IMG/VR virus record: IMGVR_UViG_3300037264_005121
Span: 1 to 41,854 of that record
DNA: 41,854 nucleotides
From: a virus
Strand: one strand, 5' to 3'
The notes beneath the pieces were generated by a model that saw only the letters and a list, made by a program, of their open reading frames with translations, did no database searches and had not been told where the DNA came from. Both the position numbers and the translations under genes were made by a program. Every line of letters starts with the position of its first letter. The stretch's first letter is position 1. Shown piece after piece: positions 27,817 to 41,854 of this stretch.

Positions 27817-28689
27817 ATGTTCGTCTACGTGTCCGCGCACGGGCTAGATCCGCAGCCTGTGCTCACAACTCTTATCTCGCCCACCCCGCAGAGCGACGCG
27901 GCGGTCGTCGAGATCGCGCGCGGCGCCGAGCCGCTTGCGATCAGGAACATCCGGCAGTTCGAGCTGTCACCCTACATGCCGGCGCTCTCGACCGATCCGC
28001 AGATCGCCGTGAACCAGGTGAAGGACCGCTACCTCTCGTGCGCGCGGTGCCACCTCGCGGAGTCGCGCAACTACATCGTCTTCACGCGCGGCAACCTCTA
28101 CTCGCCCGTGCTCGCACTCGGCGAAGGGCCGGGCCGCGAGGAAGACAAGAAGGGGGTTCCGTTCATCGGACGATCGGGGCGTCTCCAGAGCGAACTCTTT
28201 CGCGAAGCGGGGCTCGACCCTGACCGCGACATTGCGTGGGCAAATATAATCGGCTGTAGGCCGGTACTTGACAGGTGGAGCGGCGACCGCCCGCCGACCG
28301 AAGTAGAGAAGCTCGCGTGCTCGGAGCGGTTGCTTCTCCTGCTCCACGCGATCCGCCCGCGCGTCGTGATCTGTCTCGGGCAAGTCGCCACGACGGCATT
28401 CTTCGCGGAGCCGCCGCCGCTTTACCGCTGGATCGGCCCGGTGGCCTCGACCATAGCGCCGGAGGACTGGGTGATCTTCGCCCACGTCCCGCACCCCGCT
28501 GGGCTCCTTCGCACGCTCGCGTCGCCGTTCACCTACGCGAAGTTCAAGAGCACGCAGATCTTCTTCCGCGAGCTCAAGGCGAAGCTCCCTACGCTCCAGA
28601 AGGTGGCGAGCTGGCCGTTCGGCGTCCAGTACGTTGACAAGTTCCTCGCCGAAGGAAAACCAATGCTCGGAAAGGCGGTCGCGAAGTAG
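27817..28689 (+). CDS. Uracil-DNA glycosylase, family 4-like (Fe-S)
   Basis: ATG 27817 is used; the ribosome site is weak, so a later start is possible. The 290-residue product matches family 4 UDG: 'LALGEGPGREEDKKGVPFIG' (motif 1, E at residue 103), 'WANIIGCRPVLDRW', 'RPRVVICLGQVATTAFF', and 'HVPHPAGLLRT' (motif 2). Cys 75, 78, 147 and 168 have the spacing pattern expected for the 4Fe-4S cluster. The enzyme removes uracil from DNA. It heads a run of replication genes (winged-helix, loader, helicase, primase), so it likely protects replicating phage DNA, and the phage genome is not expected to contain uracil in place of thymine. Confidence 0.85.
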   Translation: MFVYVSAHGLDPQPVLTTLISPTPQSDAAVVEIARGAEPLAIRNIRQFELSPYMPALSTDPQIAVNQVKDRYLSCARCHLAESRNYIVFTRGNLYSPVLALGEGPGREEDKKGVPFIGRSGRLQSELFREAGLDPDRDIAWANIIGCRPVLDRWSGDRPPTEVEKLACSERLLLLLHAIRPRVVICLGQVATTAFFAEPPPLYRWIGPVASTIAPEDWVIFAHVPHPAGLLRTLASPFTYAKFKSTQIFFRELKAKLPTLQKVASWPFGVQYVDKFLAEGKPMLGKAVAK

Positions 28690-29112
28690 ATGCTCTCGAG
28701 TAAGGACTACCTCGCGCAGCTCGTTCAGTCGCGCGCGCTCTACCGTGCCATGCTGCAAGAGGCATTGAGTCTCTTGCCGGCGAAGGGCACCGACAAGCTC
28801 GAACCACTCGAGAGCTTCACGGCGCTTGCCACGTTCGCGAAGCAGCTCAACGTCTCGCGGAAGACGCTAGCGGCGGACATGCGCCGGCTCGAGCACTTCA
28901 AGTGGGTGCAGATCGACGGTGAGGTGCGCGTCCTCGGGCGCCGCGACGCCGAGGGTGTCTACCTCATCGCGGACCTCGCGGCGCAGAACGCCACGGGCGA
29001 CCCGCGCCTCGTCTCCGATCTCGTCGTACCGGACATCCTGCGCGTGAAGGCCGCGGTGAAGGACGACACGTCGGCGCACCGTACCGGCCTCGGTCGCAGG
29101 TGGACTCCGTGA
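28690..29112 (+). CDS. Winged-helix DNA-binding protein
   Basis: ATG 28690 begins directly after the UDG stop. The 140-residue product has a winged helix near residues 40-85: 'FTALATFAKQLNVSRKTLAA' then 'DMRRLEHFKWVQIDGEVRVL', i.e. helix-turn-helix and wing strands. It overlaps the helicase loader gene (GTGA at 29109-29112). Small winged-helix proteins beside a DnaC-like gene are often replication initiators or primosome partners. A regulator is also possible. Confidence 0.6.
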   Translation: MLSSKDYLAQLVQSRALYRAMLQEALSLLPAKGTDKLEPLESFTALATFAKQLNVSRKTLAADMRRLEHFKWVQIDGEVRVLGRRDAEGVYLIADLAAQNATGDPRLVSDLVVPDILRVKAAVKDDTSAHRTGLGRRWTP

Positions 29113-29741
29113 CCCGCGCCATTCGCGAGCGCATGCAACCGGATGACCCGCATGAGTGGCGCGAGAGTCTCCGTGCGGCACGTATCCCAGACCGCTTCTG
29201 GACGGCTACTACTGCTGCCGTGCGGGACCCTACTGTCCGGCAGTGGGGTGAGATGATGCTGGTCCACCCCGAGCTGTGGCTTGGCAAGGGCTACGGTGCT
29301 TTCTTCCACGGCCCCGAGAACACTGGCAAGAGCTCGCTCGCGGCGATCTTCGCCATGGAGGCGCTGCGCCGCATCGAGCAAGTCCTCTGGCTGCACGTCC
29401 GCGACGTGCCGGCGGTGCGCTTCCGAGAGAACCCCGAGTTTGCCAAGGTGGACGATCTCCTTCATCAAGCCGACTTCCTCGTGCTCGATGACCTCGGCGC
29501 CGAGCGGTTCAGGATGTCGAGCGCCGCCGGTCCCGCGCTCGAGGAGACGGTGCGGATTCTCTACGAGCGGAATCGGTCGGTCTTCGTCACGTCGAACTTC
29601 TCGTGGAAAGCCTTCGACGAGCACTACTCGAAGGAAGCTCGCCCGCTCGTCTCTGTGCTGAACCGCGTCGTCATCCCGGTGGCGCTGACCATCCCGTGGC
29701 CGGGCGAACCTGGACCGGACATGCCGCGCGTGGGGGTCTAG
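29109..29741 (+). CDS. DnaC/IstB-like helicase loader ATPase
   Basis: GTG 29109 is chosen over GTG 29100 because AGGTGG lies 5 bases upstream and GTGA overlaps the previous stop. The 210-residue product is an AAA+ ATPase of the DnaC class. It has Walker A 'FHGPENTGKSSLAA' (about residues 66-79), Walker B 'FLVLDDLGAERF' (about residues 122-133) and a sensor region 'SVFVTSNFSWKAFDEHY'. DnaC-like proteins load the replicative helicase on DNA. The helicase gene starts at the last base of this stop codon. Confidence 0.82.
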   Translation: MTRAIRERMQPDDPHEWRESLRAARIPDRFWTATTAAVRDPTVRQWGEMMLVHPELWLGKGYGAFFHGPENTGKSSLAAIFAMEALRRIEQVLWLHVRDVPAVRFRENPEFAKVDDLLHQADFLVLDDLGAERFRMSSAAGPALEETVRILYERNRSVFVTSNFSWKAFDEHYSKEARPLVSVLNRVVIPVALTIPWPGEPGPDMPRVGV

Positions 29742-31180
29742 TGGACATCGAAGGGCTCTACTACTCCTCGCTCCTCTCGCGCGGCTCTGTCGGCGATCTC
29801 CGGCTCGTTCAACGCGAGCATGTCTCCGAGCTGTGGCAAGTTGTGCACGATTGGATCGTCGCCTTCGTCCAGCAGGAGAGGCAGCTCCCCCAGGCGATCA
29901 CGCTCGAGCAGACGTTCTACGGGCGCACACCGCTCGGCAGCGCGCAGCTCCCCCAGGCGTACGAAGCACCCTCCCACTACGCCGGGCTCATCCGCGAGAA
30001 CGCGATGCGCCTTGCCATGGAGGCGGGGTTCAGCGAGAAGGTCGGACAACCGCTCCGCGAGCTGAAACCAGGAGAGGCGCTCGCCGGGGCGAAGTCGGTC
30101 ATCTCCGATGTCTCGCGGCAGTTCCGCGACCTCGACCGCGGGCTCGTCCTCCCCGAGATGTCGGTCAGCACGCAAGCGCGCTACGCCGACTACCAGTTCC
30201 GCAAGATCGCCGGTACGCAGGTCGGTGTCCCGACGCCCTGGCCTTCGCTCACACGCGCCACGGGCGGGCCGCGTCCTGGTGAGATGTGGGTGATCCTCGC
30301 CCGCCCCAACATGGGCAAGTCGCTCGCCTCGGCGGTCATGGCGACCTTCCAGCGGGAGTGCGGGCTCCGGGTCCTCTACGTCTCCATGGAGACGCCGCCC
30401 ATGGGCGCGCTCCCGAAGGACCCGCGGCACCGCGTCGTGGGCTACGGCGCCACGCGGCGCTGCATCCGGTGCTTCGACCCCGCGGCGGACCCGGCGTACC
30501 TCTGCCCCGCTGCCGCTACGCCGCGGCAGCGTCTCACGATCCGCTTCGACTCGCTCGGGGCTCGCGTCTCCATGTGGCGATTCCTCAACGGGCAGCTCAC
30601 TCCACTCGAGGAGACCGCGCTCCAGAAGTACTACCGGCGGTGCGAGCGCTACCCTGAGCTCGGGTGGGGGCCGCTCAAGATTGTCGCGGCGCCCTACATC
30701 CGCTCGGTCATGGATCTCGAGACGGAGATCCTCGAGCTTCAACCGGACGTGGTCTTCTGGGACTCTGCCTACCTTGCGATCCCACACACCGGGGCCAAGA
30801 AGATGAACGAGGCTGCGAGTGAGTTCATCGTCGACACGAAGCTCATGCTCGAGCGCGTGGCCGTGCCGGGCATCCTCACCTGGCACTTCAACCGCGACAT
30901 CGACCGCGACGCCATGGACGCGACGCAGAACAGCGCGGCGCTCACCGACGAGGTCGGGCGCGTCTCCGACGTGATGTTGGGGCTGTTCCGCCCGCCGAAC
31001 ATCGTGAAGGCCGGGGAGGCAATGATGAAGTCATTGAAGGTGCGAGACGGTCTCGCGCTCAGCCGCATGCGCACTAGATTTGAAGTTAAGGAGCGAGTCG
31101 ACTTCCGCGAGCTTGCGGAGCCCGAGGACGAGAAGCAAGAGGCGGCGAAGGATGCACCGGCAGAGGGGAAGAAGACGTGA
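29741..31180 (+). CDS. Replicative DNA helicase, DnaB/gp41-like
   Basis: GTG 29741 overlaps the loader stop (TAGTG). The open frame extends upstream, but only as shadow. The 479-residue product has an N-terminal helical domain (1 to about 150) and a RecA-type core. The core has Walker A 'LARPNMGKSLASAV' (about 185-198), 'LYVSMETPPMG' (the E of motif H1a), Walker B 'DVVFWDSAYLAI' (about 336-347) and 'GILTWHFNRDIDRD' (about 377-390), the equivalent of the 'SQLNR' motif. Between H1a and Walker B is an unusual insertion with 'CIRCFDPAADPAYLC' (about 241-255), which may bind metal. A charged tail ends the protein. It unwinds DNA at the fork with the primase encoded next. Confidence 0.82.
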   Translation: MDIEGLYYSSLLSRGSVGDLRLVQREHVSELWQVVHDWIVAFVQQERQLPQAITLEQTFYGRTPLGSAQLPQAYEAPSHYAGLIRENAMRLAMEAGFSEKVGQPLRELKPGEALAGAKSVISDVSRQFRDLDRGLVLPEMSVSTQARYADYQFRKIAGTQVGVPTPWPSLTRATGGPRPGEMWVILARPNMGKSLASAVMATFQRECGLRVLYVSMETPPMGALPKDPRHRVVGYGATRRCIRCFDPAADPAYLCPAAATPRQRLTIRFDSLGARVSMWRFLNGQLTPLEETALQKYYRRCERYPELGWGPLKIVAAPYIRSVMDLETEILELQPDVVFWDSAYLAIPHTGAKKMNEAASEFIVDTKLMLERVAVPGILTWHFNRDIDRDAMDATQNSAALTDEVGRVSDVMLGLFRPPNIVKAGEAMMKSLKVRDGLALSRMRTRFEVKERVDFRELAEPEDEKQEAAKDAPAEGKKT

Positions 31181-31246: not shown

Positions 31247-32257
31247 ATGGACCGTAGTTTGGTTCTCGAGTTCGCTCGTCTGGTTGATTCGCCTGTGGAG
31301 AAGGAACGATCGTCGAACGTGATGCTCCGCTGCCCCTTCGAGCACATGCACCCGAAGCGTGGCAAGTCGATGACGCTCTCGGTCAAGGTCGAACCCGGCC
31401 AGCCGTCGGTCGCGAACTGCTTCGTTTGCGGGATCAGCGGTCGTCTCTACACGGGGTCGCAGGAGCACCCTGGCGTCTACGAGCAAGCGCAGCGCACGCT
31501 AGGCGGTTTCGAGATGGCGCTCAAGTTCCTACAGGAGTTCGACCGCGGCGACTTCATGAGCGTCCTCTCGGCGGCGCGCTCGCCGCTGCTCAAGAACACC
31601 CCAAGCGCTGAGCCCTCCTACCAGCTCGAGCGTTACGTCGCGCGCTGCTCGCGCTTCGTACCGACCTACCTGGTCGAGCAGCGCGGGATCGTCAGGGCCG
31701 ACGTGGAGAAGTGGCGCCTCGGCTTCGACGAGAAGCGGAACCGCGCCGTCTTCCCGGTGTGGAACGAGCAGCGCTTCCTCGTGGGCTCGACGGGTCGCTC
31801 GGTGCTCCCGGACGGCGTCGACCCTCCCCGTTACAAGGACTACCCGCCTGAGTTCGCGCGTGTGAAGACGCACTTCTTCTACGGTGAGCACCTCGTCGAC
31901 GCGACGCTCGAGCACGTTTACCTCTGCGAAGGCCCGCTCTCCGTGATCTACGCCGCGCGCGTGCTGACGAACGTCCTCGGCATGTTCGGCGCGTCCACGG
32001 GCGTCACCCCCGAGCGGCTCGCGAAGCTCCGCCGGTGGGCGCGGAAGGTCACGATCATCTTCGACGGCGACGTCGCTGGGCGTGAGGCCGTCTTCGGTAA
32101 GGTCGATCCTCACGGGCGTCACCACGAGGGGCTCCGCGACGTTCTGCGGCAGCACTTCGTGGTCGAGGTGGTCACGCTCCCTGAAGGGCAGGACCCGGCG
32201 TCCATCCAACCTGACGTGCTGCTTCACGCTGTCCGGGCAGCACGTTACGTCATCTAG
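31247..32257 (+). CDS. DnaG-like primase (zinc finger + TOPRIM)
   Basis: ATG 31247 with GGTGA close upstream is preferred; GTG 31211 is an in-frame alternative. The 336-residue product has an N-terminal zinc site (Cys29 and His35 in 'LRCPFEHMHP', Cys58 and Cys61 in 'NCFVCG') and a TOPRIM core. The core has 'VYLCEGPLSVIYA' (catalytic Glu about 228), 'GMFGASTGVTPERL', and 'VTIIFDGDVAGREA' (Asp 273 and 275). This is the domain order of bacterial-type primases. It would make RNA primers at the fork with the DnaB-like helicase. It is shorter than DnaG and lacks a clear C-terminal helicase-binding domain. The window's second primase (from 40460) is of an unrelated type. Confidence 0.83.
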   Translation: MDRSLVLEFARLVDSPVEKERSSNVMLRCPFEHMHPKRGKSMTLSVKVEPGQPSVANCFVCGISGRLYTGSQEHPGVYEQAQRTLGGFEMALKFLQEFDRGDFMSVLSAARSPLLKNTPSAEPSYQLERYVARCSRFVPTYLVEQRGIVRADVEKWRLGFDEKRNRAVFPVWNEQRFLVGSTGRSVLPDGVDPPRYKDYPPEFARVKTHFFYGEHLVDATLEHVYLCEGPLSVIYAARVLTNVLGMFGASTGVTPERLAKLRRWARKVTIIFDGDVAGREAVFGKVDPHGRHHEGLRDVLRQHFVVEVVTLPEGQDPASIQPDVLLHAVRAARYVI

Positions 32258-32288
32258 TTCAACCGCTCGCCAGTCGTCGGTGGCATGT

Positions 32289-32299
32289 GGTATTATTCG
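32289..32299 (+). promoter_or_regulatory. GGTATTATTCG motif before SSB-like gene
   Basis: Second exact copy of the 11-mer found at 27781-27791, here 75 bases before the SSB-like start. TATTAT fits a -10 box; no good -35 is visible, so an extended -10 or phage-specific sigma factor or activator is possible. Confidence 0.4.
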
Positions 32300-32326
32300 C
32301 ACGCCTCCATGGGGAGAGCATGCAGT

Positions 32327-32358
32327 ACCCGTAAAGGGTGGATACGCCCGCTTAGGGC
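32327..32358 (+). promoter_or_regulatory. Two small hairpins in SSB-like gene leader
   Basis: ACCC-GTAAA-GGGT (32327-32339) and GCCC-GCTTA-GGGC (32346-32358) form adjacent 4-bp stems with 5-base loops. They sit just ahead of the AGGAGA site for GTG 32374. Leader hairpins near an ssDNA-binding gene could allow translational self-control, as known for T4 gp32, but that is inference. Confidence 0.25.
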
Positions 32359-32373
32359 AAACAGGAGATCGAA

Positions 32374-33831
32374 GTGAGCAAGTTGCAAAGCGGCTACGAC
32401 CATAGCCCGCCGGACATCGACTACGAGTCCTCGCGGGAGACGAAGATGTTGTCTATCTACCCCGGCAAGGAAGTCATCGTGTCGGTGCTCGACACCGCGC
32501 CCGTGCGTGTCATGCGGCACAAGCTCTACATCAAGGGCGACCGCGGCGCGAAGCACAAGCGCGCCACGTGCTGGGGGTGGAACCCGGACGAGCACCCGCA
32601 GCTCCCGAAGGGTGTCGCGTCTTGCCCGCGGGAGTGCATCTCGTGCAACGCGATGCTCGTGTCGCCGGCGAAGGACTTCATCGGGCGCGGGCTCTGCTAC
32701 TACCTCTCGGTCATCAACGAGAGCGACGTGACCGACCAGAACGGGCGGCAGCTCTTCGACAAGCAGGGGCGCCCCTACAAGGACACGAAGCGTCTCCTCG
32801 AGCTCGACTGGAAGGGGTACCAGTCCTTCCAGCAGAAGGCGAAGACCTACGGCCAGCTCGCCGGCATGCGCTTCCGCGTGAACCGGAGCGGCCCGCCGCC
32901 GGGGCAGAAGAACATCCAGTCGCCCACCTACGGCGACATCTGGGAGCCGCTCGACGTGAAGCCGGTGGACCTCGTGCGTCACTTCTGGCAGTCGCCGGTG
33001 ATCGCGCGCGTCCAGGAGGGCAACGCGCGGAAGTCGAGCACGGTGATCCCGCACGAGCAGGCTGTCCGCGAGCTCGTGAAGCCCTTCAACTACGACGAGG
33101 AGGTCGGCGAGTACAGCGCGGAGGAGCACGGGCGCTTCGTCGCGTACGCCGAGGGCATGTTCGGTCGCTTCCAGGGCTCGCAGACGCAGCCTGGCGGCTA
33201 CGCGCCCCCGCCGCCCCCTCCCGGTGCGATGCCGAACTACGCGTCGGCGCCGCCCGCCAGTGCGATGCCGAGCGGGCAGGTGCCGAGCTACTCGCAGGGA
33301 CCGCCGCAGCCCCCCGCGGCTCCGCAGTACGCGCCGCCGACGCAGGCTCCCATGCCCGCGCCGAGCCCGTTCGTCGGCGCCCCGGCAGGGCCGACGCCTC
33401 CGTGGCAGCAGCCGGGGCCGCAGGGCGCTCCGCCGCAGCCGCAGTACGCCCCGCCTTTCTCGCCGCCCGGCGGCGCGCCCCCGCAGGGCTTCCCGTTTCC
33501 GCAGGGTGGCTACCCCGGCGGGCCTCCGCAGCAGCAGCAGTACGCTCCCCCGCAAGGCTACGGTGCCCCTCCGGGCTACCCGGCGCAGCAGGTGCCCGGT
33601 CAGCCGCCCATGATGGGCACGCCCCGGCTTCCCGCGGCCCCGGACCCCGCCGGCGCTCGGCAGGCGTCCTACGCGGCGCCCCCGTCCATGGGAGCACCGC
33701 AGGGTGGCTTCTCCATGCCGACTGGCCCCATGCCGGGGATGCCGCAGCCCGCGCAGCGTCCGCAGGGCGACTACGGTGCGCAGGGATGGTCGTCGGCGCC
33801 TCCGGGCGCCGCTGACGACGACCCGATCTGA
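32374..33831 (+). CDS. Single-stranded DNA-binding protein-like, long Pro/Gln/Gly tail
   Basis: GTG 32374 has AGGAGA 6-7 bases upstream. Of 485 residues, about 1-260 are folded. There is a beta-rich core with a Cys cluster ('CWGWNPDEHPQLP', 'CPRECISCNAML') suggesting zinc, then 'DIWEPLDVKPVDLVRHFW'. Residues about 267-480 are a low-complexity tail rich in P, G, Q, A and Y ('YAPPPPPPGAMPNY'-type). The chain ends in 'GAADDDPI', which resembles the acidic tip ('DDDIPF') that bacterial SSBs use to recruit partners. Position between primase and polymerase agrees with an SSB role (gp32-like function). Sequence family is not certain. Confidence 0.65.
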   Translation: MSKLQSGYDHSPPDIDYESSRETKMLSIYPGKEVIVSVLDTAPVRVMRHKLYIKGDRGAKHKRATCWGWNPDEHPQLPKGVASCPRECISCNAMLVSPAKDFIGRGLCYYLSVINESDVTDQNGRQLFDKQGRPYKDTKRLLELDWKGYQSFQQKAKTYGQLAGMRFRVNRSGPPPGQKNIQSPTYGDIWEPLDVKPVDLVRHFWQSPVIARVQEGNARKSSTVIPHEQAVRELVKPFNYDEEVGEYSAEEHGRFVAYAEGMFGRFQGSQTQPGGYAPPPPPPGAMPNYASAPPASAMPSGQVPSYSQGPPQPPAAPQYAPPTQAPMPAPSPFVGAPAGPTPPWQQPGPQGAPPQPQYAPPFSPPGGAPPQGFPFPQGGYPGGPPQQQQYAPPQGYGAPPGYPAQQVPGQPPMMGTPRLPAAPDPAGARQASYAAPPSMGAPQGGFSMPTGPMPGMPQPAQRPQGDYGAQGWSSAPPGAADDDPI

Positions 33832-33848
33832 TACCTAACCCGACCAGG

Positions 33849-33907
33849 TGAGCGGGGCACGAGGTAGAAAACGCCGTCCTTTCAGGCCGGTCCTCGTGCC
33901 CCGCTCA
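33849..33907 (+). other. Long 16-bp hairpin before DNA polymerase gene
   Basis: TGAGCGGGGCACGAGG (33849-33864) pairs exactly with CCTCGTGCCCCGCTCA (33892-33907) across a 27-base loop. It fills most of the 95-base gap between the SSB-like gene and the polymerase gene. No clean T-run follows (TCGTTTCCCC). It may be a terminator, processing site or a structured regulatory RNA; the loop has a CTTTCAG segment like a tRNA anticodon loop, but the whole is not a tRNA. Confidence 0.55.
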
Positions 33908-33926
33908 TCGTTTCCCCGAGGGGCCT

Positions 33927-36434
33927 ATGCTCGCTGAAGCTCCGGTCATGGCCGGGCCGCAGCCGCGTCGCATCCTGACGCCCAAGGAAGCGATCCCGCT
34001 CCTGCTCGACCCCCGCATCTCGCCGGTTGTCTCGCTCGACACCGAGTTCGGCGAGCGCGGGAAGGACGTCCCTGCGTGCCGCGCGAGGCTGAACGGCCTC
34101 TCGCTCGGCGGCGGCACGCCTCAGACCGGACATTTCGCGACCTTCTTCCCGTTCGACAACAGCCCCAACGCGATGCCGTGGGCCGACCTCCGCGACCGCG
34201 TTCTCATCCCGATCATCTCCGACCCGGCACGCGGGCTTGTCGAGCACCCGCTCAAGGTCGACATGCAGGTGGTGCGCCAGCCCGCCCGCGGCATCCCGCG
34301 CGACGCGTGGAAGTGCCGCATGTTCTGCACCATGTCGATGGTCCACATCCACGACGAGAACTTGCCGAAGGGCTTGAAGGAGCTCGGCGACTGTCTCCTC
34401 GGGGTGAACGACCTCGCGTCCTACAAGCAGGTCCAGCGGGAAATGGACCGGATCAAGAGGGACGGCACGAAGGCGGTCAAGGCACAGATCAAGGAAGCGC
34501 TCGCGGTCTACAAGGAGTTCCGCGCCAAGTCCGACAAGGCGCAGGTACCGATCGACCGCTCGTGGCCGCTCTGGCAGCAGCTCGCCATGGCGCTACCGTC
34601 GAACAAGCTCCTCCCGCGCGACCAGCGACTCAAGGTACGCGACCTGGCTACGCGGCTCGAGCCCAAGCTCTCTGAGCAGATCCTCGGCGAAGCGCAGCGG
34701 AAGGCCGCGGATCGGTTCGCGCTCTACGGCGCCGAGGACGCGCTCATCACAATCGAGCTGCTCTACTACCTCGCGACGCGCTTACCACCGGACCTCTGGT
34801 CGTTCGTCGAGTTCGAGCGGCAGGTGTGCCACCCCATCGTTACGGAGATGGAGGAGACCGGGCTCAAGATCGACCTCCCACGGCTCGCGGCGATCCGCGT
34901 CGCTATGGAGAAGGCGATCGAGGTCGTGCGCGCGGACGTGATCGCGCGATGGGGCTTCAACCCCGCGACCGGCCAGAAGACCGACCTCGGCACCGATGAC
35001 GCCGACACGGAGTTCAACCCGGCGTCGAACGATCAGATCGCCCACATCGTGTGGAACGTCTGGAACCTCCGCCCGCCGCCGTTCGCGACGAAGAACAACA
35101 AGCTCCAGCCGAAGTTCCAGCGGGCGAAGGATGGGCTCTGCATCTTCGACAAGGAGATCCGAGCTTACCTCGCGGAGCACGCCCCCGAGCCCTACGCGAC
35201 GAACATCCGGTTGATCGGCGAGCTCGGGCGGCTCGAGAAGCTCCTCTCGACGTTCGTGCTACCGCTCATGAGCTACGCGCAGGACGACCCCGATCAGCGC
35301 GCGCACGCCGCGTTCTGGCCTGTCGGCGCACGCTCGAACAGATTTTCTTCGAGTGATCCGAACGCCGAGAACATCCCGCGCGCCTATACCATGCCGCTCA
35401 TCCCGGTCCCGGAGACTGCCGACTACACGAAGCCGCCGCCGGGCGTCGTGACAGGTACCGAGAAGGACAAGAAGACCGGGCTCGACAAGAAGATCTGGCG
35501 CGTCGAGTCCCTGCGGCGCGTCTTCATCGCCGAGCCGACTCCGGTGCTCTGGACTCCTCCGAGGCTGCGTCTCCCGCCCGAGCCGAACATGCTCGCCGTC
35601 GCCGACCTCGCGCAGATCGAGAATCGTTTCATTGCACACGAGTCCCAGGACCCAGCACTCCTCGAGCTGTTCCGTCGGTGGGACTGCTTCGAGTGCAAGG
35701 GCACCGGGCACACAGTGGAGCCACTTCACAAGTGCCCCAAGTGCGGCGCCCCCGACGGCAAGCGGGACAAGACGAAGCCCGACCAGCCCCCGATCAAGGG
35801 CTTCTGTCTCGGCAAGGACATCCACTCCCACTCGGGTTACTGCTTGGGCTTCTTCGCGAAGTACGGCCCAGCCGTCGGGCGAGAGAAAAGTAAAACCTTC
35901 AACCACGCCGTGTCTTACGGCATGGGGGCCAACACTTTAGCTAGGCGCGAGGGCATCGAGCCCGAAGAAGCACAGCGGATGCTCGACATCATGTACGCGA
36001 CCTACCCAGGTATCCAGCGGCTCACGTGGCGGGTCCGTCAAGAGATCGAGCGCACCGGCGCTGTGCGGCTGTTCTCGGGCCACGTCCGCCACTTCCCGAT
36101 CCAGAAGCTCCTCCGTGACTCGGGGAACTTCTTCGACTGGGAGTGGGAGGGCACGATCCGTGAGGGCGTCAACGTCCTCGCCCAAGGCGGCACGGGCATC
36201 CTCATGAAGCGCGCGATGATCAGCCTCTACGCGCGGCTCCAGACTGAGGAGGATCTCCTCGGCGTCCGAATTCTCTCGCAGGTACACGATGAGCTCGTGC
36301 TAGAAGGACCGAAGAGCCGGATCAAGGCAGGGCTCGCGGCGATGGTGTGGGAGCTGGAACACTCCGCGCCCGAGCTGTCGGTGCCCGTGATCTGCGAAGG
36401 CGCTATCGGAGCGGATTGGGGGTCATGTAAGTGA
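33927..36434 (+). CDS. DNA polymerase, family A, with zinc-ribbon insertion
   Basis: ATG 33927 opens 835 residues. The N-terminal exonuclease domain has 'VSLDTEFGE' (D38, E40), an Exo II-like 'VEHPLKVDMQVV' and 'YGAEDALITIELL' (Exo III). Polymerase motif A is 'ADLAQIENRFIAH' (D560, E565), motif B 'REKSKTFNHAVSYG' (R652, K656, Y664) and motif C 'SQVHDELVLE' (H787-D788-E789). All catalytic carboxylates are present. Two things are odd. The position equal to Phe762 of E. coli Pol I is His660. About 43 residues with 'CFECKGTGHT' and 'CPKCGAP' (C587, C590, C603, C606) are inserted between motif A and the 'DIHSHSG' helix. This is the likely replicative polymerase of the phage. Confidence 0.93.
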   Translation: MLAEAPVMAGPQPRRILTPKEAIPLLLDPRISPVVSLDTEFGERGKDVPACRARLNGLSLGGGTPQTGHFATFFPFDNSPNAMPWADLRDRVLIPIISDPARGLVEHPLKVDMQVVRQPARGIPRDAWKCRMFCTMSMVHIHDENLPKGLKELGDCLLGVNDLASYKQVQREMDRIKRDGTKAVKAQIKEALAVYKEFRAKSDKAQVPIDRSWPLWQQLAMALPSNKLLPRDQRLKVRDLATRLEPKLSEQILGEAQRKAADRFALYGAEDALITIELLYYLATRLPPDLWSFVEFERQVCHPIVTEMEETGLKIDLPRLAAIRVAMEKAIEVVRADVIARWGFNPATGQKTDLGTDDADTEFNPASNDQIAHIVWNVWNLRPPPFATKNNKLQPKFQRAKDGLCIFDKEIRAYLAEHAPEPYATNIRLIGELGRLEKLLSTFVLPLMSYAQDDPDQRAHAAFWPVGARSNRFSSSDPNAENIPRAYTMPLIPVPETADYTKPPPGVVTGTEKDKKTGLDKKIWRVESLRRVFIAEPTPVLWTPPRLRLPPEPNMLAVADLAQIENRFIAHESQDPALLELFRRWDCFECKGTGHTVEPLHKCPKCGAPDGKRDKTKPDQPPIKGFCLGKDIHSHSGYCLGFFAKYGPAVGREKSKTFNHAVSYGMGANTLARREGIEPEEAQRMLDIMYATYPGIQRLTWRVRQEIERTGAVRLFSGHVRHFPIQKLLRDSGNFFDWEWEGTIREGVNVLAQGGTGILMKRAMISLYARLQTEEDLLGVRILSQVHDELVLEGPKSRIKAGLAAMVWELEHSAPELSVPVICEGAIGADWGSCK

Positions 36435-36850
36435 TGAAGACTTGTCAGCGCTGCTTCTTCCCGGAGTCGCCCGATGATGCCGCGGTCTGCGCGAACTCCA
36501 ACTGCGCGGCGCCGTTCCCCGTTCGGACCGCGCCCGCCCCAATGCCGGCGGCGCCGCGGGAGCCCCGGCAGCTCGTGCGCGCCACCGACCCTGCGACCTC
36601 CTACGGCGGCGCCGTCGCGGCGGTCGCCAAGCTCGGCGAGACGCAGCGTCGCACTGTGGACGCTGTGCGCGCGCATCCGGGGCTAACCGCTCGCGAGCTC
36701 GCGCAGGCGGTGGGCGACGCAGACCCCCGCGACATCAACCGGCGGCTCAACGAGGTCGAGTCCGCGGGCCTCGTCGTCCGCCGTGGCCCGCGCCCGTGTT
36801 CGATCACGAACAAGCCATGTTCTACATGGTGGCCGAAGGAGGATGCATGA
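36434..36850 (+). CDS. Zinc-ribbon/winged-helix protein
   Basis: ATG 36434 (or GTG 36431) lies at the last base of the polymerase stop. The 138-residue product starts with a Cys-rich segment ('CQRCFFPESPDDAAVCANSN', then C) like a zinc ribbon. It has a proline-rich linker and then a winged helix: 'RTVDAVRAHPGLTARELAQA' and 'DINRRLNEVESAGLVVRRG'. It probably binds DNA as a regulator or replication accessory. 'ATDPATSYGGAVAA' before the winged helix is a pattern seen in small phage proteins of unknown role. Confidence 0.62.
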   Translation: MKTCQRCFFPESPDDAAVCANSNCAAPFPVRTAPAPMPAAPREPRQLVRATDPATSYGGAVAAVAKLGETQRRTVDAVRAHPGLTARELAQAVGDADPRDINRRLNEVESAGLVVRRGPRPCSITNKPCSTWWPKEDA

Positions 36851-37148
36851 AGAAGAAACGCAAAACACCACAGCGTCCATGTCCTCATTGCGGCGATCTC
36901 ATTCGGATCGACCGCGAGTGTTCGCGCATGACGTGCTTTGTGCTCAGGCAGCGTGCTGCGGTGTGGACATACCACACTGGGATGTGCAGAGCCGCGTACT
37001 CGCGGCGGTCGTCAAGGCGTTCGAGGACCGCGGTCCGGTCGAGGTCTCGGGGATCGACTGGGCGAAGCGCGAGGCCGAGACGAAGAAGCTCACCGAGGAG
37101 CGCGACTCGTACCGCAAGGCATGGCTCGAGGAGCGTGAGAAAAAGTGA
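36847..37148 (+). CDS. Small zinc-ribbon protein, reading frame apparently split
   Basis: ATG 36847 has a strong GGAGG 4-5 bases upstream and encodes 'MKKKRKTPQRPCPHCGDLIR' and 'IDRECSRMTCFVL', a plausible zinc site (CPHC...C.....C). After about 30-40 codons this frame turns into Arg/Ser-rich shadow sequence and runs to 37428, overlapping the next gene. The frame one base back instead becomes protein-like ('VDIPHWDVQSRVLAAVVKAF', 'WAKREAETKKLTEERDSYRK') and stops at 37146-37148, just before the next gene. Either a -1 frameshift (mutation, sequencing error or programmed) joins the two halves, or a second gene starts at GTG 36918. No clear slippery site is visible. Confidence 0.4.
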
Positions 37149-37154
37149 GTGCAC

Positions 37155-38288
37155 ATGTCAGTCTACGTCGATGACATGGAAGCTCCGTTCGGAAACATGG
37201 TCATGTGTCATCTACTCGCGGACACGACCGAGGAGCTTCTCGTCATGGCCGACAAGATCGGCGTCCAGCGGAAGTGGCTCCAGCACGGCGGGACCTTCAA
37301 GGAGCACTTCGACATCGCCCTCTCGAAGCGCGCGCTCGCCGTCCAGCACGGTGCGCGGGAGATCTCCTGGCGAGAGGCTTCCAAGATGGTGTTCGCGCGG
37401 CGCAACCCACGAAAGGTGGCAGGAGTGATCGAGCTCGTTCAAGGTGACTGCATCGAGGTGCTGGCGCGCCAGCCGGAGGGCGCGGTCGACGTCGTCGTGT
37501 GCAGCCCGCCCTACAACCTCGGCGTGAAGTACCGGAGCTACGCCGACACGATCTCGCGGAAGGACTACCTCGAGTGGACGGTGCGCTGGCTCACGGCGGT
37601 GCACCGAGTCCTCTCCGCCGAGGGCTCCCTGTTCCTCAACATCGCCGGGAAGCCGAGCTCGCCCATGGGGCCGTTCGAGGTGCTCATGGCGGCGTGCTCG
37701 GGCTTCAACGGTAGGTGGGTCCTCCAGAACACGTTCTACTGGGTGAAGTCGATCACGGTGCCAGGTCCCGACGGCGCACCGCACTCCGTTGGTCACTTCA
37801 AGCCGCTCAACTCCGAGCGCTTCGTGAACGACTGCGTCGAGTTCGTTTTCCATCTCACGAAGACCGGGTCGGTGCCCCTTGATAGACTGGCGATCGGCGT
37901 TCCGTACGCTGACAAGTCGAACGTTGGTAGGTTCGGCGCCGAAGGAAGACCCGACATCCGATGCAGGGGCAACGCGTGGCACATCCCCTACGAGACGATC
38001 ACGAACCGCGAGAAGGATCGTCCGCACCCGGCATCGTTCTCCCCGCTACTCGCCGAGTGGTGTTTCAAGCTCCACGGTCTGAGCCGGATACGCAAGACGC
38101 TCGACCCATTTTTGGGTATCGGTTCGACGGCAGTCGCGTCGGCCAAGCTCGGCCTCCCACATCTGGGGATCGAGTTGGACCCGACCGACATCCGCGAGGC
38201 TGCGACTCGTGTGGCGAGCGCGGGTGGAGTCGTCGCGCAGCCGACCGCGATCGTCGCGACGCGCGCCGATCTCCTGGTGGACTTCTGA
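37155..38288 (+). CDS. DUF4031 domain fused to N4/N6 DNA methyltransferase
   Basis: ATG 37155 is used (GTG 37149 possible). Residues 1 to about 85 resemble DUF4031: 'MSVYVDDMEAPFGNMVMCHL', 'ADTTEELLVMADKIGVQRKW', 'ALAVQHGAREISWREA'. From about residue 91 follows a DNA methyltransferase of the beta order: 'LVQGDCIEVL', then motif IV 'SPPYN' (117-121), and near the C-terminus motif I 'DPFLGIGSTAVAS' (317-329). SPPY is typical of N4-cytosine and some N6-adenine enzymes, so the base cannot be fixed. A strong internal start (GTG 37425) could also give the methyltransferase alone. The likely role is protection of phage DNA or tuning of expression. Confidence 0.75.
   Translation: MSVYVDDMEAPFGNMVMCHLLADTTEELLVMADKIGVQRKWLQHGGTFKEHFDIALSKRALAVQHGAREISWREASKMVFARRNPRKVAGVIELVQGDCIEVLARQPEGAVDVVVCSPPYNLGVKYRSYADTISRKDYLEWTVRWLTAVHRVLSAEGSLFLNIAGKPSSPMGPFEVLMAACSGFNGRWVLQNTFYWVKSITVPGPDGAPHSVGHFKPLNSERFVNDCVEFVFHLTKTGSVPLDRLAIGVPYADKSNVGRFGAEGRPDIRCRGNAWHIPYETITNREKDRPHPASFSPLLAEWCFKLHGLSRIRKTLDPFLGIGSTAVASAKLGLPHLGIELDPTDIREAATRVASAGGVVAQPTAIVATRADLLVDF
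37413..37427 (+). promoter_or_regulatory. Internal ribosome site and GTG start in methyltransferase gene
   Basis: AAAGGTGG (37412-37419 region) lies 5 bases before an in-frame GTG at 37425, which would begin a protein 'MIELVQGDCIEVL', the usual start of stand-alone methyltransferases. There is no stop between the upstream domain and this point, so both a fusion and a shorter product may be made. Confidence 0.45.
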
Positions 38289-38290
38289 CC

Positions 38291-38518
38291 GTGACGCGGG
38301 ACCCGGATGCTCTCCGCGCGCGTGTCCGTGAGCTCGAGGTCGCTCTCCGCGAATCGTTTGCGGAGAACTGGGCGCTCGTCACCGAGCTGGCACGTACGCG
38401 CGCGAAGCTCACGTTGGCGTCGCAAGTCAAGATGTACCAAGGCCCACGCGTGGCGACGCCCGCCCTCGATCTCCCGCCGGCGCCCGCGGCTCGCACTGAT
38501 CTTGCCGTCGACTTCTAG
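38291..38518 (+). CDS. Small coiled-coil protein, 75 aa
   Basis: GTG 38291 lies two bases after the methyltransferase stop. The product starts with a charged helix ('DALRARVRELEVALRESFAE'), likely coiled coil, and ends in 'ARTDLAVDF'. The end resembles the last residues of the methyltransferase ('TRADLLVDF'). No family is recognised. Its TAG (38516-38518) lies inside the palindrome CTAG that also contains the stop of the convergent gene. Confidence 0.55.
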   Translation: MTRDPDALRARVRELEVALRESFAENWALVTELARTRAKLTLASQVKMYQGPRVATPALDLPPAPAARTDLAVDF

Positions 38519-38718
38519 GCCAGCAGCTCGCCGGGTCCCAGGAGCCGGAAGCCGGCGTGGTGCGCCGCCTCGCGCTGTTCCTTCGTGGGCGTCCAGCCGA
38601 GGCGAACGATGTGCATGTCCGTTGCGATCGCGTTGTGGATCTGCGCGGCGCCGCTACAGAGCTGCGCCACGAGCTCGTTGGGCGGGATCTCCGTGGGGTC
38701 CGAGAACGGCTTCCTCAT
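38515..38718 (-). CDS. Small hypothetical protein, 67 aa
   Basis: The start is ATG at 38718 (minus), overlapping the kinase stop as ATGA. The longer open frame upstream is shadow. The product ('MRKPFSDPTEIPPNELVAQL', 'CSGAAQIHNAIATDMHIVRL') is helical and not recognised. The tail 'WTPTKEQREAAHHAGFRLLG' is basic and amphipathic. Translation is probably coupled to the dNMP kinase gene. Confidence 0.6.
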   Translation of the reverse strand: MRKPFSDPTEIPPNELVAQLCSGAAQIHNAIATDMHIVRLGWTPTKEQREAAHHAGFRLLGPGELLA

Positions 38719-39281
38719 GTGGCGATCTGCATGATGGTGGTGTGCGCGACTTTCTCGCGGAGCTGCTCGAGCGTTCCGTCGTTGAGGATGATCTCGTCGA
38801 AGAGCGCCTCGCCTTCGAGCGCACGCTTCCGCATGTCGCGGACCTCGGTCTCGCTCGGATGGAGATCGCTCTCGGGGAGCCCCGGACGGTAGACGAGGAC
38901 GTTCATGACCTTGGCGTAGCCCTCTAGCTGCTCGGCGGGGTTCGTGCGCTCGTTGTAGAAGCGCCCATCCGAGACCACGACCACGTCCGGCGACTTCGAG
39001 CTGCGCACGTAGTCGACGGTGCGGTCGATCCACACGTTCTTGTGGACGCCGTCGCGACCGACCGCGGTCCCGAACCACTGCCACCAATGCCGCGCCGTCT
39101 TCCCGTAGAAGAGCTTCGTCTCCTTCTCGGAGTCGGGGAGATCGTGCGGGACACCGATCAGAGCCTCGGCTCCGAGCTTGAGCGCGAGGGCGAACGAGAC
39201 GACCTTGCCACCGAGCTTCTCGGCGATTGCCGCGGCGACCTCGTTCTTCCCGTGTCGCTTCTCCCCGAATACGACGATCAT
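38715..39281 (-). CDS. Deoxynucleoside monophosphate kinase
   Basis: The start is ATG at 39281 (minus); the long open extension to 39845 is shadow. The 188-residue product has Walker A 'VVFGEKRHGKNEVAAAIA' (G6 to N13 region). It also has a dNMP-kinase core 'ARHWWQWFGTAVGRDGVHKN' followed by 'VWIDRTVDYV', close to the 'LQ..GTE..R....W' pattern of T4 gp1-like enzymes. 'VVVSDGRFYNER' supplies the Walker B-like segment. It phosphorylates dNMPs to dNDPs, feeding phage DNA synthesis. It lies on the strand opposite the replication genes. Confidence 0.78.
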   Translation of the reverse strand: MIVVFGEKRHGKNEVAAAIAEKLGGKVVSFALALKLGAEALIGVPHDLPDSEKETKLFYGKTARHWWQWFGTAVGRDGVHKNVWIDRTVDYVRSSKSPDVVVVSDGRFYNERTNPAEQLEGYAKVMNVLVYRPGLPESDLHPSETEVRDMRKRALEGEALFDEIILNDGTLEQLREKVAHTTIMQIAT

Positions 39282-39286
39282 TGTTT

Positions 39287-39979
39287 TCAAGCTACGTAGC
39301 CCCTTCTCGTTGAGTAGATGATCTTCTTCTTGACCGCTGCCTTGGCGCGCCGGCACTTCTTCCCGCACACGAGGGTGTTCACGTGCTTCGCTGAGAAGTA
39401 CCTGTCGCACATCCCGCAGGTCTTCGCGTAGCGCTTCGTCTTGCGTGTGCGCGCTCGCTCCTCGCGTTCCATGAGGAGTCGCTCGAGCTTGTTGTGTCGT
39501 CGGCAGCAGAACCGTTGGCGCTTCTCGGAGACGGCCTGGAGCCCAAGTCGTTCGAGCCGTTGCAGCATGGCGATCATGGTCACGCCGCACGCGAGGGCGA
39601 TCTGCTTCGCCGTGAAGCCCTTCGCGATCAAGGGCGCGACTTCGGTGCGCCAGCGCGCGTGCTCGAAGGCGGACTTCCGTGCGGCCCCGCGCGGCGCGAC
39701 GAGCGCGGCCTCGCTCGCAGTCAGGCGGTACTCGGACGGTGGGCGCCCGGTCTTCCCTGGCGCGTGCGGCCCTACCCGGAACTCGAGCTTGTGCCCGCGG
39801 CGCTGCTCGACGCGCAGGTGCGAGGCTACGTGCAGAGGTGGGCACCCCGTGGCCTCCGCGATCGCCTTGGCGGTGCGCCAGGCTCCGTCACGCGCGAGCT
39901 CGAAGATCCGCCGCTGTACGTTCGCGTCGGTGTCCCAAGTGTACTTACGTGGGCGGTGGTTCGGGCGGTGCCGCGCCAT
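39287..39979 (-). CDS. HTH protein with C-terminal zinc motif
   Basis: ATG at 39979 (minus) is preferred; GTG at 40066 is an in-frame alternative but its added N-terminus does not look coding and lacks a ribosome site. The 230-residue, very basic product has two helix-turn-helix-like segments ('AKAIAEATGCPPLHVASHLR' and 'KGFTAKQIALACGVTMIAML'). A C-terminal Cys motif follows ('CGMCDRYFSAKHVNTLVCGK' then KC). Likely a DNA-binding regulator. It lies between a ribbon-helix-helix protein and the dNMP kinase. Confidence 0.65.
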   Translation of the reverse strand: MARHRPNHRPRKYTWDTDANVQRRIFELARDGAWRTAKAIAEATGCPPLHVASHLRVEQRRGHKLEFRVGPHAPGKTGRPPSEYRLTASEAALVAPRGAARKSAFEHARWRTEVAPLIAKGFTAKQIALACGVTMIAMLQRLERLGLQAVSEKRQRFCCRRHNKLERLLMEREERARTRKTKRYAKTCGMCDRYFSAKHVNTLVCGKKCRRAKAAVKKKIIYSTRRGYVA

Positions 39980-40072
39980 CGGGACCGCCGGCTCGAAGAG
40001 CACATGACAGAACCGGAAGGCGCAGCGTTGGAGCTGCGCTCGGACAAGGACGAGGGGGTACTCCACAGCGAC

Positions 40073-40264
40073 TTACGCTGCGCCGACTTCGGCCTCAGAG
40101 GCGATCTGCGCCCCGGCGGTGGCGAGGAGGCGGATCATGTGCGACGTGGCCGTCGTCTCCTCTGCCTTCGCCTGCTTCTGGATGCGAGCGTAAAGCGAGT
40201 GCGGAAGGCGGAGTAGCACCCTCACGGAGTTGGCGTCGCCCTTCTTGTTGGCGTTCGCGGGCAT
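40073..40264 (-). CDS. Ribbon-helix-helix regulator, 63 aa
   Basis: The start is ATG at 40264 (minus), with GGGGAG about 8 bases upstream. The 63-residue product has the ribbon-helix-helix pattern: beta strand 'SVRVLLRLP', helix A 'HSLYARIQKQAKAEETT', helix B 'SHMIRLLATAG'. Such Arc/MetJ-type proteins bind operators as dimers. It is the first gene of the minus-strand cluster and faces the AEP-like primase gene across a 195-base gap, where it may act. Confidence 0.72.
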   Translation of the reverse strand: MPANANKKGDANSVRVLLRLPHSLYARIQKQAKAEETTATSHMIRLLATAGAQIASEAEVGAA

Positions 40265-40459
40265 GTCGTCGCTCCCCTGTCTGGCGTTCTACCACAACAC
40301 CCCGGACAACATCCAGCCGCGCCGTTTCGTTTTCCCCAGACCCTTGAGACCCAAGACATTGTGGCGTTTAGGGGATTGTGGTTGCGGGAGGTTAGGCTCG
40401 ATGGTTAGGATTTCCGTTTCGCGTCCTGGTCGGGTTGCGGCCCTAAGTCACGGTGCTAA
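40265..40459. promoter_or_regulatory. Divergent intergenic region with TTGTGG repeats
   Basis: The 195-base gap separates the minus-strand RHH gene and the plus-strand primase gene. ATTGTGG occurs at 40358-40364 and 40375-40381, 17 bases apart. An inverted related copy (ACCACAAC) lies at 40291-40298. They may be binding sites for the adjacent RHH or HTH protein. No strong sigma70 promoter could be chosen in either direction. Confidence 0.35.
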
Positions 40460-41854
40460 TTGAGTATAGCTTCAACGCTATCGAGCGGCTGCACCGTTGT
40501 TTTCGAGACGGTCTGCGGCCCCATCTCCAGTTACGACATTGACATAGAAGGACATCTCCGTGCTGGCCGAGGAAAGCCGCGCCCAAGTCCACCGTCCTCT
40601 TCGGACTTTTGGCGTAAGCTCCCGACCACCGAGTATCTTAGGACGCTGATCCTGGCCGCGGGGCACCGCGGTCGCGTCGTGCCTCCGAAGCTCCTTGATG
40701 TCGTGCTCAAGTTGTTCTCCGGTAACACCATCCCGCAGGTAGGGCGGCACGAGAACTTGGGCTACCGGAAGCTCTGGGCGCCGGGCTACCGGATCGACCG
40801 CGCGATCGCCTTCGAGGCGCACCTCCTTGGGATGTGGCATGCGGGCTCCTACCCCTTTGCCGGCGTCGGTTTCGGGTGCTCGTATGTCGTCTTTGATATA
40901 GACGACCACTCGCCCCCGACCGAACATGGTGCCTCTAACTCGTCGCCGCGACTGAGGAAGCTACTCGCCGTCCTGCGTGGAGTTGGGCTAGAGCCGGTCA
41001 TAGCTACTTCCATGGGCGGGCGCGGCTTCCACGTCTACGTTTTCCTGGACGCGTCTATCGCGCCTGATATAGCCCACCGCGCTGGCAAGGCGATCGTCGC
41101 CGCTGCGGGGATCACGGAGTGCGAGGTCCGTCCAAGCGAGCACCACCCGAAGGGGCTCGGCGCCGCCCACGCGTTGCCGCTCCACCCGTTCGACTGGTGG
41201 TTCGAGACCGGCGGCGATCTCCTCGATGAGCGCCTCCAGCCTGTGGGGCTCGAGCGCCGCGACGGTCTTCCTGGGCGGGACCCCCAGGCAATCCTTGAGC
41301 ACCTCGAGTACGCCCACGTGCACCGCAACCCCTGGCGCCTGGTCCACGAGCTCGCCGACGGGTCGGGGCTCCTTGAGCGGGTCACTTGTCAAGTCGGACC
41401 GTTCGTCGCCTCTGACCCCGAGCGCGAGTGGGACGACCGCAAGATCCTTCTCGCCATGGAGAAGCGCCATCCGCAGTTCAGGAAGGCGCTCAACACGCGA
41501 GCCTCCCGTTGGCCGGGTGCCCGCTCCGCGCGCGAGCTGACCCTTGCCCGTCTCATGGCGCGGCAGGGTGTCTCGAAGGATGGTGTCGTCGCGGCGCTCC
41601 TCGCGCTCGGCGGGAAGACCGCAGAGCGTCGCCTCGATCGCACTTACCTGGAGTCGCTCACCGAGTTAGGGCCGAGTAAGGGTCTCGCGCTCGAAGGGCT
41701 AGCCGGCACGCAAGTTCAAGTAAATCGACGTGGGCATGGCGAACATGTGGCGCCGAACAACGGTCCTTCCAGCACTTACCTTGCGCGTTTGCCTAAATGT
41801 GTTCTACATCTACAACAAGCATCATCTACCCCGCCAGGGCAGTGGAAGCGTGTC
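40460..41854 (+). CDS. Archaeo-eukaryotic-type primase/polymerase (incomplete at window end)
   Basis: The frame is open from just after TAA 40457-40459 to the end of the window with no stop. The start is uncertain: TTG 40460 is the first candidate and GTG 40679 the next. At least 464 residues are visible. The core has the AEP catalytic pattern: 'YVVFDIDDHSPP' (DxD motif, encoded near 40890-40925) and 'VIATSMGGRGFHVYVFLD' (the 'S.GG.G.H' motif, near 40997-41050). 'EVRPSEHHPKGLGAAHALPL' then 'HPFDWWFE' are the conserved basic/aromatic strand region of this superfamily. A helical region follows ('RELTLARLMARQGVSKDGVV'). AEP enzymes make primers or act as primase-polymerases. Why a phage with a DnaG-like primase needs this too is open. 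Confidence 0.72.
   Translation, partial: MSIASTLSSGCTVVFETVCGPISSYDIDIEGHLRAGRGKPRPSPPSSSDFWRKLPTTEYLRTLILAAGHRGRVVPPKLLDVVLKLFSGNTIPQVGRHENLGYRKLWAPGYRIDRAIAFEAHLLGMWHAGSYPFAGVGFGCSYVVFDIDDHSPPTEHGASNSSPRLRKLLAVLRGVGLEPVIATSMGGRGFHVYVFLDASIAPDIAHRAGKAIVAAAGITECEVRPSEHHPKGLGAAHALPLHPFDWWFETGGDLLDERLQPVGLERRDGLPGRDPQAILEHLEYAHVHRNPWRLVHELADGSGLLERVTCQVGPFVASDPEREWDDRKILLAMEKRHPQFRKALNTRASRWPGARSARELTLARLMARQGVSKDGVVAALLALGGKTAERRLDRTYLESLTELGPSKGLALEGLAGTQVQVNRRGHGEHVAPNNGPSSTYLARLPKCVLHLQQASSTPPGQWKRV

Follow-up and report, generated by a model that had tools for sequence, protein, structure and literature searches.

A replicon is usually assumed to have a single primase, and a class of phages that retains two unrelated ones poses the question of which task the second enzyme has. 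This question is raised by the IMG/VR record IMGVR_UViG_3300037264_005121, which encodes both a DnaG-type primase and an archaeo-eukaryotic primase (AEP). The window analysed here is the whole record of 41,854 bases, and nothing is readable past 41854. Because no end repeats were found in these 41,854 bases, the record is probably a fragment of a phage genome. Its tail sheath, baseplate and tape-measure genes identify its source as a contractile-tailed phage. An earlier reading of the sequence (the original prediction) had proposed two unrelated primases in this one phage, and this was borne out: judged by profile matches, the record holds homologues of both primase types, and the predicted catalytic motifs are complete in both.

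The open reading frame (ORF) at 40460-41854 on the plus strand, which is cut by the record end, had been taken for an AEP on account of its DxD and S.GG.G.H motifs. The profile search confirmed this assignment, as the ORF matched the Pfam family AEP-TOTE (PF22548) with an E-value of 7e-8 and 32.8 bits, above the gathering cut-off of 27. The ORF is thus an AEP homologue and a predicted primase-polymerase (Prim-Pol). The catalytic core lies at 40811-41131, and its motifs were aligned in the window protein and 53 relatives from viral contigs. Motif I (hhhDhD/E) reads YVVFDIDD with D146 and D148, motif II (sxH) reads SMGGRGFH191, and motif III (hD/E) reads CE222VRP. Both aspartates, the glycines and the histidine of S.GG.G.H, and E222 were invariant across the 54 sequences. 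Furthermore, E222 aligns with E260 (VEIFP) of the CRISPR-associated Prim-Pol (CAPP), whose motif III glutamate at this position makes the contact to the initiating nucleotide.

An earlier AlphaFold model built from 6 sequences was too poor to be used (pLDDT 41), and the model from the 54-sequence alignment, which covers residues 45-410 with a pLDDT of 72 and a pTM of 0.65, was used instead. A Foldseek search of this model against the PDB retrieved the CAPP Prim-Pol domain (7p9j/7nqd) as the best match, with an E-value of 2.6e-7 and a target TM of up to 0.70. RepB', LigD and Prim-PolC ranked behind it. The catalytic domain is therefore modelled as an RRM-like fold. A profile of the 54-sequence alignment matched CAPP at E 3e-31, a value to which the relatives contribute most and which thus locates the family and not the individual window protein. 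Behind the catalytic core, the model predicts a C-terminal helical domain (41270-41689, plus strand), whose likeness to PriCT is limited to its position and helix content; no Pfam match was found in this region. A Walker A motif is absent from the ORF at the site where helicase-fused relatives carry one, and the protein is probably free of a fused helicase.

The second primase gene (31247-32257, plus strand) runs from an ATG start to a stop codon and encodes 336 aa. It had been predicted to be of the DnaG type, with a zinc finger and TOPRIM motifs, and to reside in the helicase operon, and both points held. The protein matched the PHROG_47 DNA primase profile from residue 16 onwards (E 6e-32), TIGR01391 dnaG (E 9e-19, which is under the full-length cut-off of that model), and the solved bacterial DnaG structure PDB 4e2k (E 5e-10). 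In the latter alignment, the catalytic TOPRIM glutamate and the DGD and DPA motifs were all aligned. The N-terminal CHC2-like zinc finger is readable in the translation (CPFEHMH ... CFVCG), and the Pfam search gave no separate zf-CHC2 match for this protein. The protein stops within about 20 residues of DPA, leaving no space for a C-terminal helicase-binding domain. The DnaG of another phage record of our survey (G018, 337 aa) is almost equally long.

The neighbouring genes on the same strand form a replication operon in the order DnaC-like loader, DnaB-like helicase, DnaG-type primase and family-A polymerase. The DnaC/IstB-like helicase loader (29100-29741) matched PHROG_50 (E 3e-13) and Pfam IstB_IS21 (E 1e-6). 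The DnaB-like replicative helicase lies within the ORF limits 29603-31180, with its true start inside, and matched PHROG_19 (E 1.5e-33) and DnaB_C (E 3e-5). This helicase contains a cysteine-rich insert, RRCIRCFDPAADPAYLCP, behind its Walker A region, and DnaB_C matches it in part only. The family-A DNA polymerase (33927-36434, 835 aa) matched DNA_pol_A (E 4e-43) and PHROG_17 (E 2e-77). At about residues 583-625 it has a zinc-knuckle-like insert with four cysteines, CFECKGTGHTVEPLHKCPKCG, which separates the motif A-like DLAQIENR from the motif B region. A gene of the uracil-DNA glycosylase (UDG) superfamily (27817-28689) heads the operon.

How often such a pair of primases occurs was surveyed in viral contigs with an AEP of the AEP-TOTE type. 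The contigs were gathered from searches with different seeds, and those records that were 30 kb or longer were searched for DnaG. The tree of the surveyed AEPs split into two groups. The helicase-free proteins are mostly about 450-530 aa long and consist of the AEP and a helical or helix-turn-helix (HTH) region, whereas the helicase-fused proteins combine the AEP with PriCT-2 and an AAA_25 or D5 helicase (domains were checked for examples). The window AEP was placed on the helicase-free side with full support. DnaG was present in 8 of the 21 helicase-free records (G007, G008, G009, G010, G011, G018, G060 and G061), which represent five lineages when near-copies are merged (G007/G008, G009, G010/G011, G018 and G060/G061). 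It was found in none of the 34 helicase-fused records; one match in G043 (E 1.5e-4, inside a frame of 3358 aa) was treated as chance. Fisher's test of DnaG presence by AEP group gave p values of 3.6e-4 for the first 49 records and 0.003 after merging of near-duplicates. As the survey records are fragments, the absence of DnaG is weak evidence for any single genome. The contrast follows clades and is an association, not a proof of function.

In five of the records with both primases (G009, G010, G018, G060 and G061) the dnaG gene is either fused with a DnaB helicase gene or lies next to one, and therefore lagging-strand priming is already present in these phages. Two of them (G010 and G018) have a PHROG_405 DNA polymerase gene in the same stretch. 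Where both primases could be located, the AEP gene is about 20-84 kb away from dnaG, and thus lies at a distance from it, as it does in the window. The dnaG genes of G007 and G008 contain in-frame TGA codons, and those of G060 and G061 contain in-frame TAG codons, which suggests phages with reassigned stop codons. A separate arrangement was observed in three viral records of the same sequence (L030:402-2384, L031:1854-3836 and L032:1854-3836), where one protein apparently combines an AEP-TOTE domain with a CHC2-like zinc finger of the DnaG type (CVLHNDSNPSAHII...YKCFGC).

Stand-alone AEP-TOTE relatives also occur outside of phages, as the largest gene of staphylococcal plasmids of 6.4-7.4 kb for which no other Rep gene is listed. 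In the plasmids L200 (NZ_CP073901, 6455 bp) and L199 (NZ_CP155543, 7416 bp), this gene is annotated as hypothetical, and it is a candidate for their Rep.

The limits of the window AEP gene were less clear than its family. The ORF comprises 465 codons and has no stop before the record end, such that the true C-terminus lies beyond the record. A circular continuation into position 1 was ruled out, as terminal repeats are absent and a stop follows soon past the join. The start near 40460 named in the original prediction did not hold as well as the motifs did: TTG 40460 is a weak start, and it is doubtful because the coding signal, scored by the codon usage of the phage itself, does not rise until near 40590. 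The next in-frame start, GTG 40679, would remove helices that were modelled with fair confidence. The central part of the ORF fits the phage codon usage. After about 41690 both the coding signal and the GC content drop, which makes the last approximately 55 residues doubtful.

A divergent intergenic region with a GC content lower than its surroundings (40265-40459) separates the AEP ORF from three genes on the minus strand. The nearest (40073-40264) encodes a putative small regulator of 63 aa of the ribbon-helix-helix (RHH) type, CopG/Arc-like, which matched Pfam RHH_5 at E 2e-3, below the cut-off. The gene beside it (39287-40066) has weak HTH-like similarity (Pfam HTH_23/HTH_7 E 0.03; PHROG Ren-like E 4e-3). 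The third gene, at about 38715-39290 with an uncertain start, encodes a deoxynucleotide monophosphate kinase (DNMK; Pfam DNMK E 2e-9, PHROG_139 E 1e-31). The AEP gene had been described as divergent from a cluster of small regulators; the divergence was confirmed, whereas the "cluster" consists of one RHH gene, one weakly HTH-like gene and a kinase gene. Elsewhere in the window, a single ORF (37149-38288) fuses DUF4031 to an N4/N6 DNA methyltransferase.

What, then, is the task of the second primase? We favour the view that the AEP is an origin-initiation or auxiliary Prim-Pol that acts beside a DnaG/DnaB replisome, and assign it a probability of roughly 0.45. The phage carries a bacterial-style replisome composed of the DnaC-like loader, the DnaB-like helicase, the DnaG primase and the family-A polymerase. 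The Prim-Pol of the AEP-TOTE/CAPP-like family is encoded apart from it and would be expressed divergently from the RHH regulator, which may control its dosage. It would make primers or short strands de novo on single-stranded DNA at one particular site or stage, and most likely for the first strand at an origin, as do plasmid Rep-type AEPs, while DnaG, recruited by DnaB, would supply the repeated lagging-strand primers. Origin or first-strand priming is favoured because the helicase-free relatives are the main gene of plasmids of 6-7 kb without another listed Rep, and because DnaG and DnaB already cover lagging-strand priming. The rare but recurrent pairing likewise points to a distinct task of the second enzyme, which would then not be a duplicate. 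Direct repeats are found 5' of the stand-alone AEP gene in G008 (50 nt and 21 nt; L140:8543-9079) and in G010 (TTTATGCAT repeats; L142:9891-9978); as candidate origin iterons they are suggestive only. Among the functions that the original prediction had listed, a second start mode is thus the one best supported by context, as similar helicase-free AEPs lie away from DnaG in phages and also occur on small plasmids.

Several results weigh against this view. In the intergenic region of the window (40265-40459), neither iterons nor a sigma-70-like promoter or another origin-like feature were found. GC-skew turning points near the AEP gene of four other two-primase records were at or near the minimum in two cases, near the maximum in one case and missing in one case, and are thus inconsistent evidence for an origin at this site. 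The window AEP has a branch length of 2.17, which makes its placement in the tree unsure, and its ORF is cut at the record end and may continue into a helicase beyond 41854. Lastly, no close relatives of the window AEP, DnaG or family-A polymerase were found in viral contigs, and so no second case of the pairing was found in the phage's own lineage. With tblastn the window AEP had no match in cultured phages and only weak matches in plasmids (23-29% identity), and three stand-alone relatives also had no match in cultured phages. The best identity to any relative in the tree alignment was 24%. A scan of bacterial genomes yielded a single match, which reads as a LigD-type polymerase and was set aside.

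The main rival, which we consider unlikely, is that DnaG performs all routine priming and that the AEP serves as a polymerase for repriming, gap filling or translesion synthesis, which helps forks to pass lesions or modified bases. The polymerase and strand-displacement activities of CAPP would fit such a role, the repair-type bacterial Prim-Pols LigD and Prim-PolC are near in fold, and the phage has nucleotide-metabolism and repair genes (DNMK and UDG). However, neither Ku nor a ligase nor another repair partner could be recognised next to the AEP gene, and a protein whose stand-alone relatives are the main gene of tiny plasmids is better suited to be a replication initiator. Less likely still is a recently acquired, dispensable Rep gene of a mobile element, the remnant of a plasmid or satellite replicon at the genome edge that has no role in the phage. 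The isolated, divergent position beside a CopG-like regulator resembles a plasmid-style pair, and the gene is situated at the record end with a coding signal that decays at both ORF ends. Yet, all 465 codons are open, the catalytic residues are intact, the central part fits the phage codon usage, and the same pairing is found in at least five other lineages.

A role of the AEP in defence or counter-defence as part of a TOTE-like or CRISPR-adaptation-like conflict module is improbable. The Pfam family is named for TOTE conflict systems, the closest solved structure is CRISPR-associated, and PADLOC gave a weak Prim-Pol match (E 8e-4). TOTE conflict systems have TPR, OB, TBP and effector genes nearby (PMC12458937), but the genes searched on the readable side of the AEP included no recognisable TPR, OB, TBP or RNase H gene, and neither cas1 nor cas2 was recognised upstream of it, the side that is inside the record. 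In addition, the helicase-fused phage members of the family resemble replication proteins by virtue of their PriCT-2 and helicase domains. The "TOTE" of the Pfam name is a label for the family, which does not indicate that a TOTE system is present here. The suggestion of defence evasion found no support in the window, where PADLOC gave only that weak match and the AEP gene had no recognisable defence genes as neighbours. Finally, although the ORF is open at its end and many phage AEP-TOTE proteins carry an AAA_25 or D5 helicase after PriCT, it is very improbable that the AEP is fused to a helicase past the record end and is the main replicative primase, with DnaG secondary, because DnaG and not the AEP is inside the helicase/loader/polymerase operon, Walker A is missing where fused relatives have it, and none of the 34 records with a fused AEP had DnaG.

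Beyond the single case, a pattern emerges from the survey: AEPs without a helicase tolerate or require DnaG as a partner, whereas those fused to a helicase do without it. This association was not found in the literature searched, and it is the part most worth following. We only tentatively extend origin priming by the window AEP to the group, such that helicase-free AEP-TOTE Prim-Pols would be a distinct second priming system of DnaG-DnaB phages, i.e. dedicated origin or first-strand primases, and the leading-strand start and lagging-strand priming would be split between two superfamilies; this generalization is rather doubtful. If origin firing is indeed the task of the AEP, such phages would provide a simple system in which the leading-strand start can be separated from lagging-strand priming.

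Among known systems, the Bacillus thuringiensis phage 0305phi8-36, compared through its published description alone, shows that the novelty of the pair had been overstated, as a phage with an AEP and a DnaG was published in 2007 (PMC2147016). Its AEP, orf181, adjoins DnaB, its DnaG, orf236, lacks a helicase-association domain, and no clear reason for retaining both was seen (PMC2147016). Like the source of the window it is contractile-tailed, and one AEP and one DnaG without that domain are encoded apart. The arrangement is reversed: in 0305phi8-36 an AEP of the Pfam01896 type is beside DnaB and DnaG is elsewhere, whereas in the window DnaG is in the DnaB operon and an AEP-TOTE is apart.

CAPP is a proven de novo primase-polymerase with polymerase and strand-displacement activity (PMC8211822). 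It is the closest solved fold (PDB 7NQD/7P9J), and shares the three motifs including the motif III glutamate; a PriCT-like C-terminal domain is plausible in the window AEP as well. The identity is about 16%, and neither a TPR domain nor cas genes were recognised in the window. Burkholderia phage BcepC6B gp46 and the IMG/VR loci L008 and L009 are AEP-TOTE/PriCT-2/helicase fusions with the same Pfam catalytic domain. The BcepC6B gene is divergent from a cI-like repressor gene, as the window AEP gene is from the RHH gene. Such phage fusions bear D5 or AAA_25 helicases, unlike the window AEP as read, and none of the 34 records had DnaG.

In phages, AEPs are encoded almost as frequently as DnaG, and AEPs that combine PriCT and HTH domains without a helicase have been described in mobile elements (Kazlauskas et al., PMC5862659). 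RepE/RepS and PrimHYQ are such helicase-free AEP-PriCT replication proteins of mobile elements and resemble the window AEP in type; they belong to the PrimPol-PV1 supergroup (PMC5862659), whereas the window protein matched AEP-TOTE. Similar in architecture are the stand-alone AEP-TOTE proteins from small plasmids of staphylococci and from other viral contigs (L021-L050, L003 and L200), which are near the window AEP in length and have a C-terminal helical region and no helicase. Several of them end in a winged HTH, whereas the C-terminus of the window protein is cut and its identity is at most 24%. Several also co-occur with DnaG/DnaB replisomes, as in the window. The pairing of an AEP with DnaG is thus rare, but not unique: it is known from one published phage, and it recurs in at least five other uncultured phage lineages.

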